DNA of 64,000 nucleotides from contig NZ_CP157874.1 of the NCBI RefSeq assembly GCF_040214835.1, positions 5,172,501-5,236,500 of the forward strand, read 5' to 3'. A program made the translations under genes and the position numbers. This document shows, one piece after another, positions 29,091 through 34,130 of this stretch. The notes beneath the pieces are model-generated. The model made no database searches. It was not told where the DNA came from and saw only the letters and a program-made list of their open reading frames with translations. This DNA comes from Pseudomonas asiatica. GTDB taxonomy: Bacteria; Pseudomonadota; Gammaproteobacteria; Pseudomonadales; Pseudomonadaceae. Numbering within the stretch: the stretch's first letter is position 1; every line of letters starts with the position of its first letter.

Positions 29091-31862
29091 GTGCGTCGGC
29101 TTCGGATTGCCTCAGCTCTGATCGTCAGCTTGCTGACCTTGCTCTGCATGTTCCCGGCTGCGGCCGAACATGACGGAGGCTGGGCCGTTCTGCTCGACGA
29201 ACAGGCCAACCTGCAACTGAGCGACGTGCGCTCCGAGCGTTACCGCAACCAGTTCAGCCCGCTGGTACTCGCCGACCTGGATGCCGCCCCCGCGGAACAG
29301 GCCCTGTGGCTGCACTACCGCCTGGAGCCCGGCGAGCAGGAACAACTGCTGCGGGTTTTCGCCCCAGACCTTTCTGGCCTGGACCTCTACGCCCTCGAGG
29401 GCGACCAGCTTCTGCGTCAGCTGCACCACGGGCGCCAGGCCGGCAATGCCAGCCCGACCCTGCGTGGCAGCGACCATGTACTGCCCCTGCCCAACAGCAA
29501 GCAACCCCTGGATATCTACCTGCGCCTGGTTTCCGAGCACCAGCTGCGCCCGGCCATCAGCCTGGAGCCTGCGGCCGTGGCAGCCTCCGACCAGCGCCAG
29601 CCACTGCTGTTCGGCATGCTGTTCGGCGGCCTGGTGATGCTGATCATGCACAACCTGATCCGCTTCCTCTACAGCCGCTCCAGCACCACCCTGATCCTGG
29701 CGCTGTACCACGGCCTGATGCTGCTCAGCGGCCTGATCCTGCTGAACCTCAGCGGCCCCTGGTGGCACGTGTGGCACAGCGCGCAGACGCCCGCCGCATA
29801 CCTGACGCTGGTCCTGGCCGGCCTGGCCGGGCTGTGTTTCACCCAGCATTTCTTCTCGCCATGCAACTCGCCACGGCTCAACCGCCTGCTGCAGGGCGAG
29901 ATGCTGGTGGTCGGGTTGAGCGGGTTGGTGCTGCTGTTCGTCGACACCCTGCCCCTGAACCTGATGACCTACGCCCTGATGGCCCTGGGCAGCGTGAGCA
30001 TGCTGCTGGTCAGCAGCTACCACTGGTACAAGGGCTATGCCCCCGCACGCCTGTTCAGCCTGGCCATGGTGGTGTTCAACCTCGGTGGGCTGGTGCTGCT
30101 GCCAGCGCTGCTGGGCCTGACCCGTACTTCGACGCCCTGGCTGCTGTGCATCCTGCTGGGGCTGACCGTGGCCAGCGGCCTGCTGCTCAACCTGGCAGTC
30201 AGCGAACGCCTGCGGCGCATGAGTGAAGAGCGCTTCAGCGCCAGCCGCGCCCTGGCTGCCAGCGATGCCGAAATCAACGCCAAGGCCGAGTTCCTGGCCA
30301 AGATCAGCCACGAAATCCGCACCCCCATGAACGGTGTGCTGGGCATGACCGAGCTGCTGCTGGGCACGCCGCTGTCGGTCAAGCAGCGCGACTACGTGCA
30401 GACCATTCACAGCGCCGGCAACGAACTGCTCACGCTGATCAACGAGATTCTCGACATTTCCAAGCTGGAATCCCGGCAGATCGAACTCGATGACGTGCAG
30501 TTCGACCTCAACGCGCTGATCGAAGATTGCCTGAACATCTTCCGTGCCAAGGCCGAACAGCAGAACATCGAACTGATCAGCTTCACCCAGCCGCAGGTAC
30601 CACGGGTGATCAGCGGCGACCCGACGCGCCTGCGCCAGGCCTTGTCGAGCCTGCTGGAGAATGCCCTGAAAAACACCGACCAGGGCGAGATCCTGCTGGT
30701 AGTGGCGCTGGACCAGCGCGGCGAGGTACCGCGCCTGCGCATCGCCGTGCAGGACAGCGGCGAACCGTTGCCCGCCGCTGACCGCGAAGCCCTGCTGCAG
30801 GCCGAGTTGCACAGCCACCACTTCCTGTCCAGCAACAAGCTGGGCGGCCACCTGGGGCTGGTCATCGCCAAGCAGCTGATCGGCCTGATGCAGGGTGAGT
30901 TCGGCATCAAGAGCAGCACCGGCATGGGCAACACCCTGTGGCTGACGCTGCCGCTGGACCCTTCGCGCCTGGAACAGCCACCGGCCGACCTGGACAGCCC
31001 GCTGCGCGATGCTCGCGTACTGGTGGTGGACGACAACGACACCTGCCGCAAGGTGCTGGTACAGCAGTGCAGTGCCTGGGGCATGAACGTCAGCGCGGTC
31101 CCGTCGGGCAAGGAAGCGCTGGCCCTGCTGCGCACCAAGGCCCACCTGCGCGACTACTTCGATGCCGTGCTGCTGGACCAGAACATGCCAGGCATGACCG
31201 GCATGCAGCTGGCCGCCAAGATCAAGGAAGACCCGAGCCTGAACCACGACATCCTGGTGGTGATGCTCACGGGCATCAGCAACGCGCCGAGCAAGGTCAT
31301 TGCGCGCAACGCCGGGGTCAAGCGGATCCTCGCCAAGCCGGTGGCCGGCTACACGCTGAAAACCACCCTGGCCGAAGAACTGGCCCAGCGCGGCCGCGAG
31401 CAAGCCATACCAGCCAGTTTGCCCGGCATCCCCCAGGCACTGGACCTGCCCGGCGATTTCCGCGTGCTGGTCGCCGAGGACAACAGCATCTCGACCAAGG
31501 TGATCCGCGGCATGCTCGGCAAGCTCAACCTCGAGCCCGACACCGCCAGCAATGGCGAAGAGGCCTTGCAGGCGATGAAGGCGCAGCGCTATGACCTGGT
31601 GCTGATGGACTGCGAAATGCCGATACTGGACGGCTTCTCGGCCACCCAGCAGCTGCGCGCCTGGGAAGCGGCCAACCAGCGCCAGCGCACCCCGGTGGTG
31701 GCGCTGACCGCGCACATACTTGCCGAACACAAGGAACGCGCCCGCCTGGCGGGCATGGACGGGCACATGGCCAAACCGGTGGAACTGTCGCAGTTGCGAG
31801 AGCTGATCCAGTACTGGGCCAATCACCGGGAAGCCAAGGTGGATCCGGTGCATAGTTCCTGA
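29091..31862 (+). CDS. retS: Hybrid sensor histidine kinase RetS
   Basis: A 923-residue hybrid kinase. Order: signal peptide, periplasmic 7TMR-DISMED2 sensor (about 25-165), seven-helix 7TMR-DISM membrane region (about 170-375), histidine kinase core with the H-box FLAKISHEIRTPMNG (His407), ATPase domain, and two receiver domains. Phospho-acceptors are predicted at Asp696 (VLLDQNMPG) and Asp840 (VLMDCEMPI). In P. aeruginosa, RetS heterodimerises with GacS and switches between acute virulence and biofilm life; the same organisation and purH-purD-retS order support the name. The start appears to be GTG 29091 with AAGAAGG upstream. The glycan ligand suggested for the sensor is known only from P. 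aeruginosa. Confidence 0.9.
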   Translation: MRRLRIASALIVSLLTLLCMFPAAAEHDGGWAVLLDEQANLQLSDVRSERYRNQFSPLVLADLDAAPAEQALWLHYRLEPGEQEQLLRVFAPDLSGLDLYALEGDQLLRQLHHGRQAGNASPTLRGSDHVLPLPNSKQPLDIYLRLVSEHQLRPAISLEPAAVAASDQRQPLLFGMLFGGLVMLIMHNLIRFLYSRSSTTLILALYHGLMLLSGLILLNLSGPWWHVWHSAQTPAAYLTLVLAGLAGLCFTQHFFSPCNSPRLNRLLQGEMLVVGLSGLVLLFVDTLPLNLMTYALMALGSVSMLLVSSYHWYKGYAPARLFSLAMVVFNLGGLVLLPALLGLTRTSTPWLLCILLGLTVASGLLLNLAVSERLRRMSEERFSASRALAASDAEINAKAEFLAKISHEIRTPMNGVLGMTELLLGTPLSVKQRDYVQTIHSAGNELLTLINEILDISKLESRQIELDDVQFDLNALIEDCLNIFRAKAEQQNIELISFTQPQVPRVISGDPTRLRQALSSLLENALKNTDQGEILLVVALDQRGEVPRLRIAVQDSGEPLPAADREALLQAELHSHHFLSSNKLGGHLGLVIAKQLIGLMQGEFGIKSSTGMGNTLWLTLPLDPSRLEQPPADLDSPLRDARVLVVDDNDTCRKVLVQQCSAWGMNVSAVPSGKEALALLRTKAHLRDYFDAVLLDQNMPGMTGMQLAAKIKEDPSLNHDILVVMLTGISNAPSKVIARNAGVKRILAKPVAGYTLKTTLAEELAQRGREQAIPASLPGIPQALDLPGDFRVLVAEDNSISTKVIRGMLGKLNLEPDTASNGEEALQAMKAQRYDLVLMDCEMPILDGFSATQQLRAWEAANQRQRTPVVALTAHILAEHKERARLAGMDGHMAKPVELSQLRELIQYWANHREAKVDPVHSS

Positions 31863-31877
31863 TCTGAGGCGCCTGTG

Positions 31878-31977
31878 CCGGCCTCTTCGCGGGTGAACCC
31901 GCTCCCACAGGGATAGCATTGCCTTCAGGCCTTATGCAGTACCTGTGGGAGCGGGTTCACCCGCGAAAAGGCCGGTA
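31878..31977. repeat. REP pair (family A, inverted)
   Basis: Inverted TCGCGGGTGAACCCGCTCCC copies between retS and marC, both reading to the right. Confidence 0.92.
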
Positions 31978-32039
31978 CAGGCTATCAACAGAATCTGCTG
32001 ATAAACTCTGCCCAGCCATAACTGCCTGGACTAGCCCCC

Positions 32040-32636
32040 ATGCTCCATGAGTTGTTCAGCGTCTACCTGAAAATGCTCGTGCTCTACAGCCCGTTCTTCG
32101 TGCTGTCGTGCTTCATCAGCCTGACCCGCGGACACTCCAGCAAGGAGCGCAAGCAGCTGGCCTGGAAGGTGGCCATCGCCGCGCTGATCGCCAGTGTCCT
32201 GCTGTACCTGTTCGGGCGGGCGATCTTCGGCATCTTCGGCATCACCGCCGACGCCTTCCGCATCGGCGCCGGCAGCGTGCTGTTCATCTCGGCACTGGGC
32301 ATGGCCCAAGGCAAGTCCGCGGTACAGGCCGACAACGTGCAGCAGGATGTCACCATCGTGCCGCTGACCATCCCGCTCACCGTCGGCCCCGGCACCATCG
32401 GTGCACTGCTGGTGATGGGCGTCGGCCACCCGCACTGGGACGACAAGCTGTTGGCCATCATCAGCATCGCCCTGGCCAGCTTTACCGTCGGCCTGGTGCT
32501 GTACCTGTCACACCGTATCGAGCGCATCCTCGGTGACCAGGGCCTGCAGATCGTCAGCCGGCTGATGGGGCTGTTCGTCTGCGCCCTGGCTGCACAAATC
32601 ATCTTTACCGGTATCAAAGGCTACCTGGCGCCCTGA
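32040..32636 (+). CDS. MarC family integral membrane protein
   Basis: A 198-residue protein with six membrane segments, matching the MarC/UPF0056 family (LYSPFFVLSCFISLT, PLTIPLTVGPGTIGALLV, and a C-terminal RLMGLFVCALAAQIIFTGI). Despite its name the family has no proven role in antibiotic resistance. Its 3' end overlaps the end of the convergent unknown gene by 23 bases, which hints that the latter was joined here later. Confidence 0.88.
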   Translation: MLHELFSVYLKMLVLYSPFFVLSCFISLTRGHSSKERKQLAWKVAIAALIASVLLYLFGRAIFGIFGITADAFRIGAGSVLFISALGMAQGKSAVQADNVQQDVTIVPLTIPLTVGPGTIGALLVMGVGHPHWDDKLLAIISIALASFTVGLVLYLSHRIERILGDQGLQIVSRLMGLFVCALAAQIIFTGIKGYLAP

Positions 32637-33297
32637 CCATCGCCGCATTGAGGTCGAACCGATACTCCCCCTGCGCATCCTTGGTTTTCATCAATGCCTG
32701 CAGTTCATCTCGCTGGTGTTGGAAGCGCCCGTTATCCAGCTGCAAGGAAACGCCATTGAACCCGGCTTCGCCCTCCAGCGCCTTTTCGACCAACAGCATG
32801 TCCTGAGAGATGCCGGCGATCGGCTTGTCGAATTGCAGGGTGATACTGCAAAGGTCGAGCGCCGGCCCCGGCTTGAGCAGGCCAAGCTCGATCACCAGCT
32901 GCGAACCCTGCGTGCTGAACTTCAGCTGGTGGCGAAAACCTTCGATCGATCGGCCCAGGCCGCTTCTTACTGCAGCCAGCACGGCTTCATGACGGATCGA
33001 GCGCATCTTCAGCCACGCCTCGAGCGGCTGTATCTGCGCGCTGCGCGCGGGTTGCCCCAACTGTTTCAGGTCATGCGTACTGGCCAGCTTGATCCAGCCC
33101 AGTTGCCGATATGCCTCGCGATAGGCGTCATACCAGGCTTCATAGTTGTCAAAGCGTGACCCCGCATTCCTGTTGGCCACCAACTGGGCGTAAAGGATGG
33201 AGTCGAAGGCAGCCTGGCGTTGAATCTGGCCAGTGTCCGCGCGATACAGTAATGCCGTCCCGCCAATCAACATCAGTTGTTCAGCTGTTCTGTCCAT
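32614..33297 (-). CDS. Unknown protein A of a two-gene cassette
   Basis: A 227-residue protein I do not recognise. No signal peptide or membrane helix is seen. Residues 30-68 (AFDSILYAQLVANR, then YEAWYDAYREAYRQLGW) resemble residues 34-71 of the neighbour at 33357-34037 (AFHFATLVADK, then EWYDRFIDVMRDLGF). The C-terminal part (FNGVSLQLDNGRFQHQRDEL) also parallels its partner, so the two are probably paralogous along their length. A CGAGG ribosome-binding site precedes ATG 33297. It is the second gene of the pair, 59 bases behind its partner with a hairpin between. The 3' end runs 23 bases into marC. Base composition is below that of the flanks. Confidence 0.8.
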   Translation of the reverse strand: MDRTAEQLMLIGGTALLYRADTGQIQRQAAFDSILYAQLVANRNAGSRFDNYEAWYDAYREAYRQLGWIKLASTHDLKQLGQPARSAQIQPLEAWLKMRSIRHEAVLAAVRSGLGRSIEGFRHQLKFSTQGSQLVIELGLLKPGPALDLCSITLQFDKPIAGISQDMLLVEKALEGEAGFNGVSLQLDNGRFQHQRDELQALMKTKDAQGEYRFDLNAAMVRAPGSL

Positions 33298-33327
33298 TGC
33301 GTTGCCTCGTCACAAAGAGCCGAACAA

Positions 33328-33350
33328 GGCGGCGTTGCAACAACGCCGCC
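33328..33350 (-). other. Perfect 10-bp hairpin between the two unknown genes
   Basis: GGCGGCGTTG and CAACGCCGCC form a perfect stem around a 3-base loop. On the minus strand it is followed by TTGTTCGGCTCTTTG, only weakly T-rich, so it may be an attenuator giving less of gene A than gene B. Confidence 0.55.
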
Positions 33351-33356
33351 CTGCAA

Positions 33357-34037
33357 TCAGATGTCGTACTGGAGAACGTTCTCGACGCTGCGCACGCCGA
33401 GTTTGTTTTCCACGGTTTCGCGGACCTTGTCGTAGACGAAAGTGTTGAGGGTGAGCACAGCCATGCCGGCGTAGTACTCGGTCTTTTCCAGCTTCCACTG
33501 GATACCCAGGATGTCATCATCCAGTTGTGGGGCAGACGCCTGGATGCAGTTCACCACCATGACTACATCGTTGTTGTCGGTTTCGACGCAGGCGGCCATC
33601 CCGACCATGCCCCTGACCTTGTTCTTGCGCTTGTGATCGACCACCTTGAGGTCGTTTTCGACGGTGGTGAGTTTGTCGAAGGCCGCCTTGGCCAGCACAC
33701 CCAACTTGGTACCACCCAGCACCGCATTACCGACCGCACCAATCGCCCGTACAGCGACAGCACCTATGGTGACAGACAGGTCGGCAGAGGTTTCCAGCTC
33801 GAAGGTGCGACGAGGGATGGTAAAACCAAGATCACGCATGACATCGATGAACCGGTCATACCACTCCCTGCTCTGTTTTTCGGCATCGAAGGACTTGTCA
33901 GCCACCAAGGTGGCAAAGTGGAAGGCATTCTTCACATCGTGGCGGCTTTGCGCCGACATGCCTGCGCCGCAGGCCAGCAGGTTACCTTCAACCAGGATGG
34001 CTGTGTCAGTTGCAGTGACTTGTGTTTCTGTGGACAT
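33357..34037 (-). CDS. Unknown protein B of a two-gene cassette
   Basis: A 226-residue protein I do not recognise. It lacks a signal peptide. Three parts can be seen: an N-terminal segment with the pair signature (AFHFATLVADK then EWYDRFIDVMRDLGF, residues 38-71), a hydrophobic Ala/Gly/Val stretch (residues about 88-121, including IGAVAVRAIGAVGNAVLGG), and a C-terminal part (YYAGMAVLTLNTFVYDKV) that parallels protein A. The hydrophobic stretch could be a buried helix pair or a membrane-inserting segment; this is inference. TAGGAG precedes ATG 34037 at good spacing, and a stem-loop lies just upstream. One 60-base line inside it (33601-33660) has 34 G+C, against 41 for 34801-34860 in cobJ. Confidence 0.8.
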   Translation of the reverse strand: MSTETQVTATDTAILVEGNLLACGAGMSAQSRHDVKNAFHFATLVADKSFDAEKQSREWYDRFIDVMRDLGFTIPRRTFELETSADLSVTIGAVAVRAIGAVGNAVLGGTKLGVLAKAAFDKLTTVENDLKVVDHKRKNKVRGMVGMAACVETDNNDVVMVVNCIQASAPQLDDDILGIQWKLEKTEYYAGMAVLTLNTFVYDKVRETVENKLGVRSVENVLQYDI

Positions 34038-34053
34038 GTGGAAACTCCTAGAT

Positions 34054-34079
34054 GGTTACCCCTCGAGTGAGGGGCAACC
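34054..34079 (-). other. Stem-loop in the 5' leader of unknown gene B
   Basis: An 11-base-pair stem with a 4-base loop lies 17 bases before the start codon. The one non-Watson-Crick position is a G-U pair in minus-strand RNA but an A-C mismatch in plus-strand RNA, so the structure fits a minus-strand transcript. It ends just before the TAGGAG ribosome-binding site. Confidence 0.55.
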
Positions 34080-34130
34080 AACTTAGCCAGCGCGCCCAGG
34101 ATGCAACGCGCTGAAGGGTTTCCGGTGCAA

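Follow-up and report, generated by a model that had tools for sequence, protein, structure and literature searches.

What are the two adjacent genes that lie between marC and cobJ in Pseudomonas asiatica, and what might their products do together? They are contained in the 64,000-nucleotide stretch analysed here (assembly GCF_040214835.1, contig NZ_CP157874.1, positions 5,172,501 to 5,236,500), called the window. A reading of this stretch made from its letters alone (the sequence-only reading) had described an unassigned cassette of probable paralogues on the minus strand, and both open reading frames (ORFs), of 227 and 226 amino acids (aa), were confirmed:

33357..34037, minus strand: gene B, first in the array (slot 1), encoding 226 aa with a predicted Cyt/Evf-like fold (from ORF, model, fold matches and clade).
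32614..33297, minus strand: gene A (slot 2), a paralogue of B encoding 227 aa, also with a predicted Cyt/Evf-like fold (from ORF, model, fold matches and homology to B).

Judged by predicted models, the pair is most likely the two-gene version of a multi-component, membrane-active system with the Cyt/Evf fold. The reading we favour, and to which we give slightly better than even credence, is that an unnamed Pseudomonas family of this fold forms a tandem array (ancestrally B-A-C, C being a third type of gene), in which B would be membrane-active, A and C would be its modulators and a leader would control expression.

Homology of A, B and C

By BLASTP, A and B shared 27% identity over 60 aa (E 8e-4), in an N-terminal stretch only, and narrow A and B profiles aligned over 61 columns (66%), in agreement with the common N-terminal signature noticed earlier. 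Broad profiles of the A and B clades of the genus-wide family aligned over 215 columns (99.3%, E 6.9e-21), and each aligned also with the third type, C. The sequences alone reveal only the N-terminal part of the relationship; since the clade profiles align, A and B are, by these sequence profiles, diverged copies of one gene, homologous along their full length. In a tree of 190 family sequences (with low support at some deep nodes), A-type (62) and B-type (67) sequences formed separate groups matching their array position, C-type sequences fell into two groups (21 and 18) and 22 sequences were unplaced.

Predicted fold of A and B

A and B were each modelled alone, as two separate predicted models. 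The A model reached a mean predicted local distance difference test score (pLDDT) of 75.9 and a predicted template modelling score (pTM) of 0.79; the B model was weaker (58 and 0.62). With A, the top 11 rows of a VIA search were volvatoxin A2, Cyt1A/Cyt2B of Bacillus thuringiensis (Bt), Evf and Dickeya CytC, and with B the top 10 were Bt Cyt1A/Cyt2B, volvatoxin A2 and Evf, in both cases with a gap to the next fold. Foldseek ranks 1-8 were Evf and Bt Cyt entries for A and for B alike. A and B are therefore predicted to share the Cyt/Evf/volvatoxin cytolysin fold, a single alpha-beta domain, well supported for A and less so for B, and the suggestion that the pair is toxin-related holds at the level of this predicted fold. 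No obvious signal peptide was seen by eye in A or B.

The likeness to each known system is partial. Evf (Erwinia virulence factor, PDB 2w3y) was Foldseek rank 1 for both proteins, and its chain, of 261-267 residues, is of comparable length; identity is 10-11%, and the cited text describes one evf gene, as against arrays of up to four paralogues here. Volvatoxin A2/A1 (PDB 1pp0, 1pp6, 1vcy) is fungal, has ~6% identity to the Pseudomonas proteins and stood outside the best 50 Foldseek rows of A, and volvatoxin A1 (44.8 kDa) is about twice their size. Bt Cyt1A/Cyt2B (PF01338) has a similar predicted fold, with no sequence match over the Pfam cut-off. Dickeya dadantii cytABCD likewise comprises several adjacent Cyt-fold paralogues in a Gram-negative genome (passages of PMC5390079, PMC3265518); adjacent, co-directional paralogues, of which A and B were modelled with a Cyt-like fold, were also found here, in arrays of 2-4 genes at 53 of 120 loci.

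Could the fold match be an artefact of weak models, the proteins having some other alpha-beta fold and an unrelated function? The pLDDT of B, low template modelling scores and the lack of a PF01338 sequence match would fit this explanation. Two separate models and two aligners nevertheless led to one short list of leading families, set off by a gap from all others, and the A model has a pTM of 0.79; we regard an artefact as quite improbable.

A hydrophobic segment in B

A hydropathy scan was made of the region between the N-terminal and C-terminal parts of the family proteins. A mid-protein 19-residue window of mean hydropathy at least 1.2 was found in 63/67 B-clade proteins, 5/62 of the A clade, 0/39 of the C clade and 1/22 of the unplaced type. 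In the B protein of P. asiatica it corresponds to:

33717..33773, minus strand: hydrophobic segment of B, residues 89-107, putatively membrane-inserting, mean hydropathy 1.73.

This B-specific segment suggests that B is the inserting part and that A and C are its partners.

Arrays at the marC site across Pseudomonas

Close relatives of the two proteins formed 68 (B) and 51 (A) protein clusters, whose organism-naming records were all Pseudomonas or compost metagenome; the closest of those with such records were annotated as hypothetical or uncharacterised proteins. At E <= 0.001 the B profile matched 154 of 298 Pseudomonas genomes, among them that of the window. With a diverse profile, only three of 321 genomes drawn from the class were matched: the one that contains the window and two from a single other family. 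The family members in that other family (L199, L200 and L202, in G381 and G505; L numbers denote survey loci and G numbers genomes, G000 being the window's) were the only members in the 320 genomes other than the window's.

Of 149 genus genomes, 136 had a marC that could be located, and 120 of these marC regions were surveyed. The 12 most distant of these all lacked an array and 13 further distant loci lay outside the survey, so the share of loci with arrays given here is overstated. At least one family member was found near marC, on the opposite strand, in 80/120 loci and none in 40; one member was present in 27 (including a fragment in L075), two in 13, three in 37 and four in 3. The first gene of the array was B in 70 loci, the unplaced type in 8 and C2 in 2. 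An earlier count, which missed overlapping third genes, placed the array on the kinase side of marC, not the cobJ side, in 14 loci. In L004, L015, L016, L054, L059 and L062 the array directly adjoined the kinase gene, and marC was not recognised by the script.

A-type genes were present in 49/120 loci, and in 48 of these B stood directly before A, indicating that distinct components are kept together; in the sole A locus without B the first gene, in B's position, was of the unplaced type. Intact B stood alone in 26 loci.

The pair in the window is not the usual form of the cassette. Among 17 close-relative loci, 16 had B-A-C and one B-A, and by blastn the window and L069 lacked ~640 bases present between A and marC in L001 (the contig of L070), L003, L006, L010 and L002:

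32600..32670, no strand: A/marC junction, the site of gene C (~640 bases) in relatives; C is absent here (blastn).

This missing C stretch makes the window's pair a reduced form. Besides B and A, the window's genome holds three further family members, namely another pair and a single C-type gene, which makes five in all. The second pair (G000:C1:335568-336683, L207) adjoins carnitine-dehydrogenase-like genes and an AraC-type regulator (names assigned by eye). The lone C-type gene (G000:C1:1886908-1887513; L206 6654-7520) scored 163 bits to the C2 clade and might stand in for the C missing at the cassette.

The sequence-only reading had proposed a strain-variable insertion. Presence does vary, and in five P. 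putida-group loci marC and cobJ are only 9-12 bases apart; however, the array is found genus-wide at this site, and because a truncated B is retained in L075, at least one absence is a loss. On a tree (presence in 70 of 99, scored with earlier array labels) 18 changes were needed, whereas 300 shuffles averaged 25.4 and never went below 20. The array is an old, unnamed gene cluster that many Pseudomonas species carry at the same place in the chromosome, presumably B-A-C in its ancestral form.

Other genes also occur around marC. A large TcdA/TcdB-type ORF (2,335-2,409 aa where whole; PF12919 and PF12920 in L107) lies beside it in 27/120 loci (e.g. L098, L103 and L107), 19 of which also hold family members; this ORF is in pieces in L106 and L133, and a second partial match occurs in L110, L131 and L134. 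The marC-cobJ junction carries an SMI1/KNR4 protein in L097 (8499-9086) and an ATPase-like protein in L116 and L130 (8793-9995), whose AAA matches were sub-threshold (shown for L116, which L130 resembles by eye). The junction has the look of a variable-gene hot spot.

A bacterial conflict system, with one paralogue as an antibacterial membrane toxin and the other as its neutralising partner at a variable site, would suit the fixed order of paralogous partners, the SMI1/KNR4-type protein at the same junction and the other variable genes elsewhere. It is hard to square with the loci holding B alone, if the toxin needs A as immunity, and no weighty PADLOC, PHROGs or injection-system match was obtained; we consider it very improbable.

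Selection and a conserved cysteine

Against 11 relatives, the ratio of nonsynonymous to synonymous substitution (dN/dS) of A and B was 0.08-0.26, and both genes are under purifying selection. Median identities to the window were 97 for the kinase, 96 for marC, 92 for cobJ, 83 for B and 73 for A (19-22 loci per gene; the 22 include L070 and L072, which come from the same contigs as L001 and L006). In 10/11 relatives (L069 being the exception), A and B had a higher dN and a higher dS than any of the three flanking genes, dS sometimes barely; this would suit rapid evolution, an exchange of diverged alleles, or the two together.

These data bear on a further explanation, that the proteins are lipid- or fatty-acid-binding members of the Cyt/Evf fold, holding an acyl chain in a pocket, with a non-killing role in colonisation (persistence on host surfaces or in the gut) or in housekeeping. 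Purifying selection, together with a B relative in about half of the genus genomes, would suit such a common ecological trait, and the best Foldseek match of both proteins, Evf, carries palmitate and has, according to the cited part of PMC5780409, an unknown mode of action. One strand contains a cysteine conserved in 58/67 B-clade and 38/39 C-clade proteins, yet in only 5/22 of the unplaced type and not in A, and the palmitoylated Cys209 of Evf could not be matched to a residue of the Pseudomonas proteins. Conflict is a better fit to the fast divergence, the variable presence and the toxin-like neighbours seen at the site. We judge a lipid-binding role unlikely, though deserving of serious attention.

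Predicted RNA structure in the B leader and the B-A spacer

The RNA elements predicted at the locus were as follows:

34038..34130, minus strand: structured leader of B, from the cobJ stop to the B start, predicted three-way junction.
34114..34123, minus strand: conserved GGAAACCCUU strand, predicted anti-Shine-Dalgarno (SD), predicted to pair with the SD region.
34045..34049, minus strand: SD of B (AGGAG), with a predicted pairing probability of 0.77 in the window.
33324..33354, minus strand: strong B-A spacer hairpin (z -3.65), without a terminator pattern.

The cobJ-B interval was predicted to fold at -49.7 kcal/mol (z -5.57) into a three-way junction whose closing helix joins GGAAACCCUU with the SD region. 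None of 200 shuffles folded as well, and the same was true of the B-A spacer, so the leader and inter-gene hairpin proposed earlier stand. Similar hairpins were seen in most of the relatives' B-A spacers inspected. A pattern search at the locus found no sigma-70 promoter or terminator, and Rfam gave spurious matches only.

The SD was paired with a probability of at least 0.6 in 17/18 P. putida-group leaders, and RNAalifold gave the same three helices for the 18, the minimum-energy folds of L007, L012 and L017 being unlike the rest. With this structure 89.1% of cells were paired, against 38-49% when it was slid. Six pairs were changed on both sides, a number reached by 4/500 shuffles, and the covariation score was reached by 5/500; the SD helix itself had zero double-sided changes. 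Covariation across the whole leader is moderate.

A leader model, R1, matched once in the window's genome and in 5/119 genus genomes; four of the five were the window or training contigs (L001, L004, L006), leaving G057 as the only new one, and a match at E 0.29 lay exactly on the L086 leader. The 102 first-gene leaders (the 17 close-relative loci included) gave weaker evidence, with a median fold z of -1.75 and 55 below -1.5.

Family searches

Searches of Pfam, NCBIfam, PADLOC and PHROGs with A and B gave only weak, sub-threshold matches. The immunity or injection-related function suggested for the pair gained no support, as matches in NCBIfam, PADLOC and PHROGs were weak only (best E 0.007). 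SMK_beta_su (E 0.006), PtuA (E 0.011), DrmC (E 0.008), CIS1_fam (E 0.02, 15 bits against a cut-off of 220) and two PHROGs matches of B (E 0.007 and 0.024) were set aside. SMK_beta_su is a curious case, because the SMK yeast killer toxin has been likened to volvatoxin A2 and Cyt (cited passage of PMC13211469), but it was below its cut-off and carries no weight.

PF01338 had no match over the Pfam cut-off in A, B or any of 149 genus genomes, only matches at chance level, one of the 20 such rows lying inside the G116 array. Profile searches of PDB sequences with three alignments (labelled A1, A2 and A3) found no useful relative; the best match of A3 was a designed repeat protein (E 3.4e-6) with no stretch passing on its own. 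A distant member in L019 (249 aa) gave an off-target NCBIfam match to proline-tRNA ligase (21.8 bits against a cut-off of 437). The binary nematicidal protein of P. protegens was also set aside; as described in the cited part of PMC5601331, it has subunits of 114 and 258 aa with signal peptides, one being a likely ADP-ribosyltransferase.

Neighbouring genes and base composition

By family models, the neighbours are a MarC-family protein and CobJ. cobJ, B and A run in one direction on the minus strand, towards the convergent marC; the B start lies 93 bases past the cobJ stop, and the 3' ends of A and marC overlap by 23 bases. Upstream of marC lies a kinase with the domain order DISMED2-7TM-HisKA-HATPase-REC-REC (family models), which we take to be RetS-type. 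The kinase gene and marC are separated by a stretch with a palindromic repeat (window 31861-31994), presumably REP-type (repetitive extragenic palindromic) by its look, which gave spurious Rfam matches on both strands.

The G+C content is 0.589 for A and 0.564 for B, against 0.668 for cobJ and 0.654 for the kinase gene, and the mean of the family genes was below that of the kinase gene in 78/78 loci compared; the lower G+C noticed earlier is therefore real. Taken as a whole, the observation made from the sequence was confirmed and its interpretation partly supported.

Proposed mechanism

From the homology, the array, the fold of two predicted models and the predicted leader structure, all of them computed, we infer membrane action by B, a partnership with A and C, a eukaryotic target and leader control of translation. 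B, the sole carrier of the hydrophobic segment, would bind and insert into or perturb a lipid membrane. A, and C where present, would be a soluble partner that modulates or targets B, by analogy with volvatoxin A1 and A2. The target would probably be a eukaryotic cell (e.g. an invertebrate gut cell or a grazing protist), and translation of B would be kept low by the leader until a signal opens it.

Precedents are given in the cited passages of several papers. In volvatoxin, A2 is the pore former, and A1 acts on it as inhibitor and regulator (PMC9230820). In Dickeya, three products of a four-gene cyt cluster are toxic to aphids, and a secretion signal was not detected (PMC5390079, PMC3265518). 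The palmitate that Evf carries on Cys209 is required for it to be infective and to persist in the gut of insects (PMC5780409), and Evf is regulated through Gac/Rsm (PMC7315124).

Besides the weak model of B and the missing PF01338 match, several results weigh against our favoured reading. Over whole proteins, at a hydropathy of at least 1.6, the difference between clades was smaller (32/67 for B against 17/62 for A). The RNAalifold covariation term was slightly unfavourable (0.15), and a leader control slid by -1 gave seven double-changed pairs. Of ten leaders from other branches, five had the SD paired at 0.6 or above and the other five did not, so that a switch of broader conservation is not demonstrated.

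A more specific form of the favoured reading is an unrecognised tripartite Cyt-fold system, in which B inserts, A and C tune or target it, and the P. putida-group leader hides the ribosome site until a host-associated signal arrives. Such a system would add a fourth clade to the cytolysin fold, next to Cyt, Evf and volvatoxin, and would have been passed down within a single genus, not scattered. This form is possible, though we hold it to be doubtful.

Meaning of the family

The family was not found described in open-licence PMC papers (patents and most subscription papers being outside this scope). In its cited text, a phylogeny of the Cyt toxins from 2015 describes their family as "of limited taxonomic occurrence" and does not use the word Pseudomonas (PMC5390079), and the passages cited from PMC6027264, PMC13076323, PMC5742162 and PMC4179158 contain no link between Pseudomonas and a Cyt-fold protein. 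If the fold is right, Pseudomonas has a widespread putative membrane-active family, naturally split into inserting and non-inserting paralogues, and the question of partners among Cyt-fold proteins would become testable in a soil bacterium. Such a family could account for part of the dealings of pseudomonads with insects, nematodes or amoebae.
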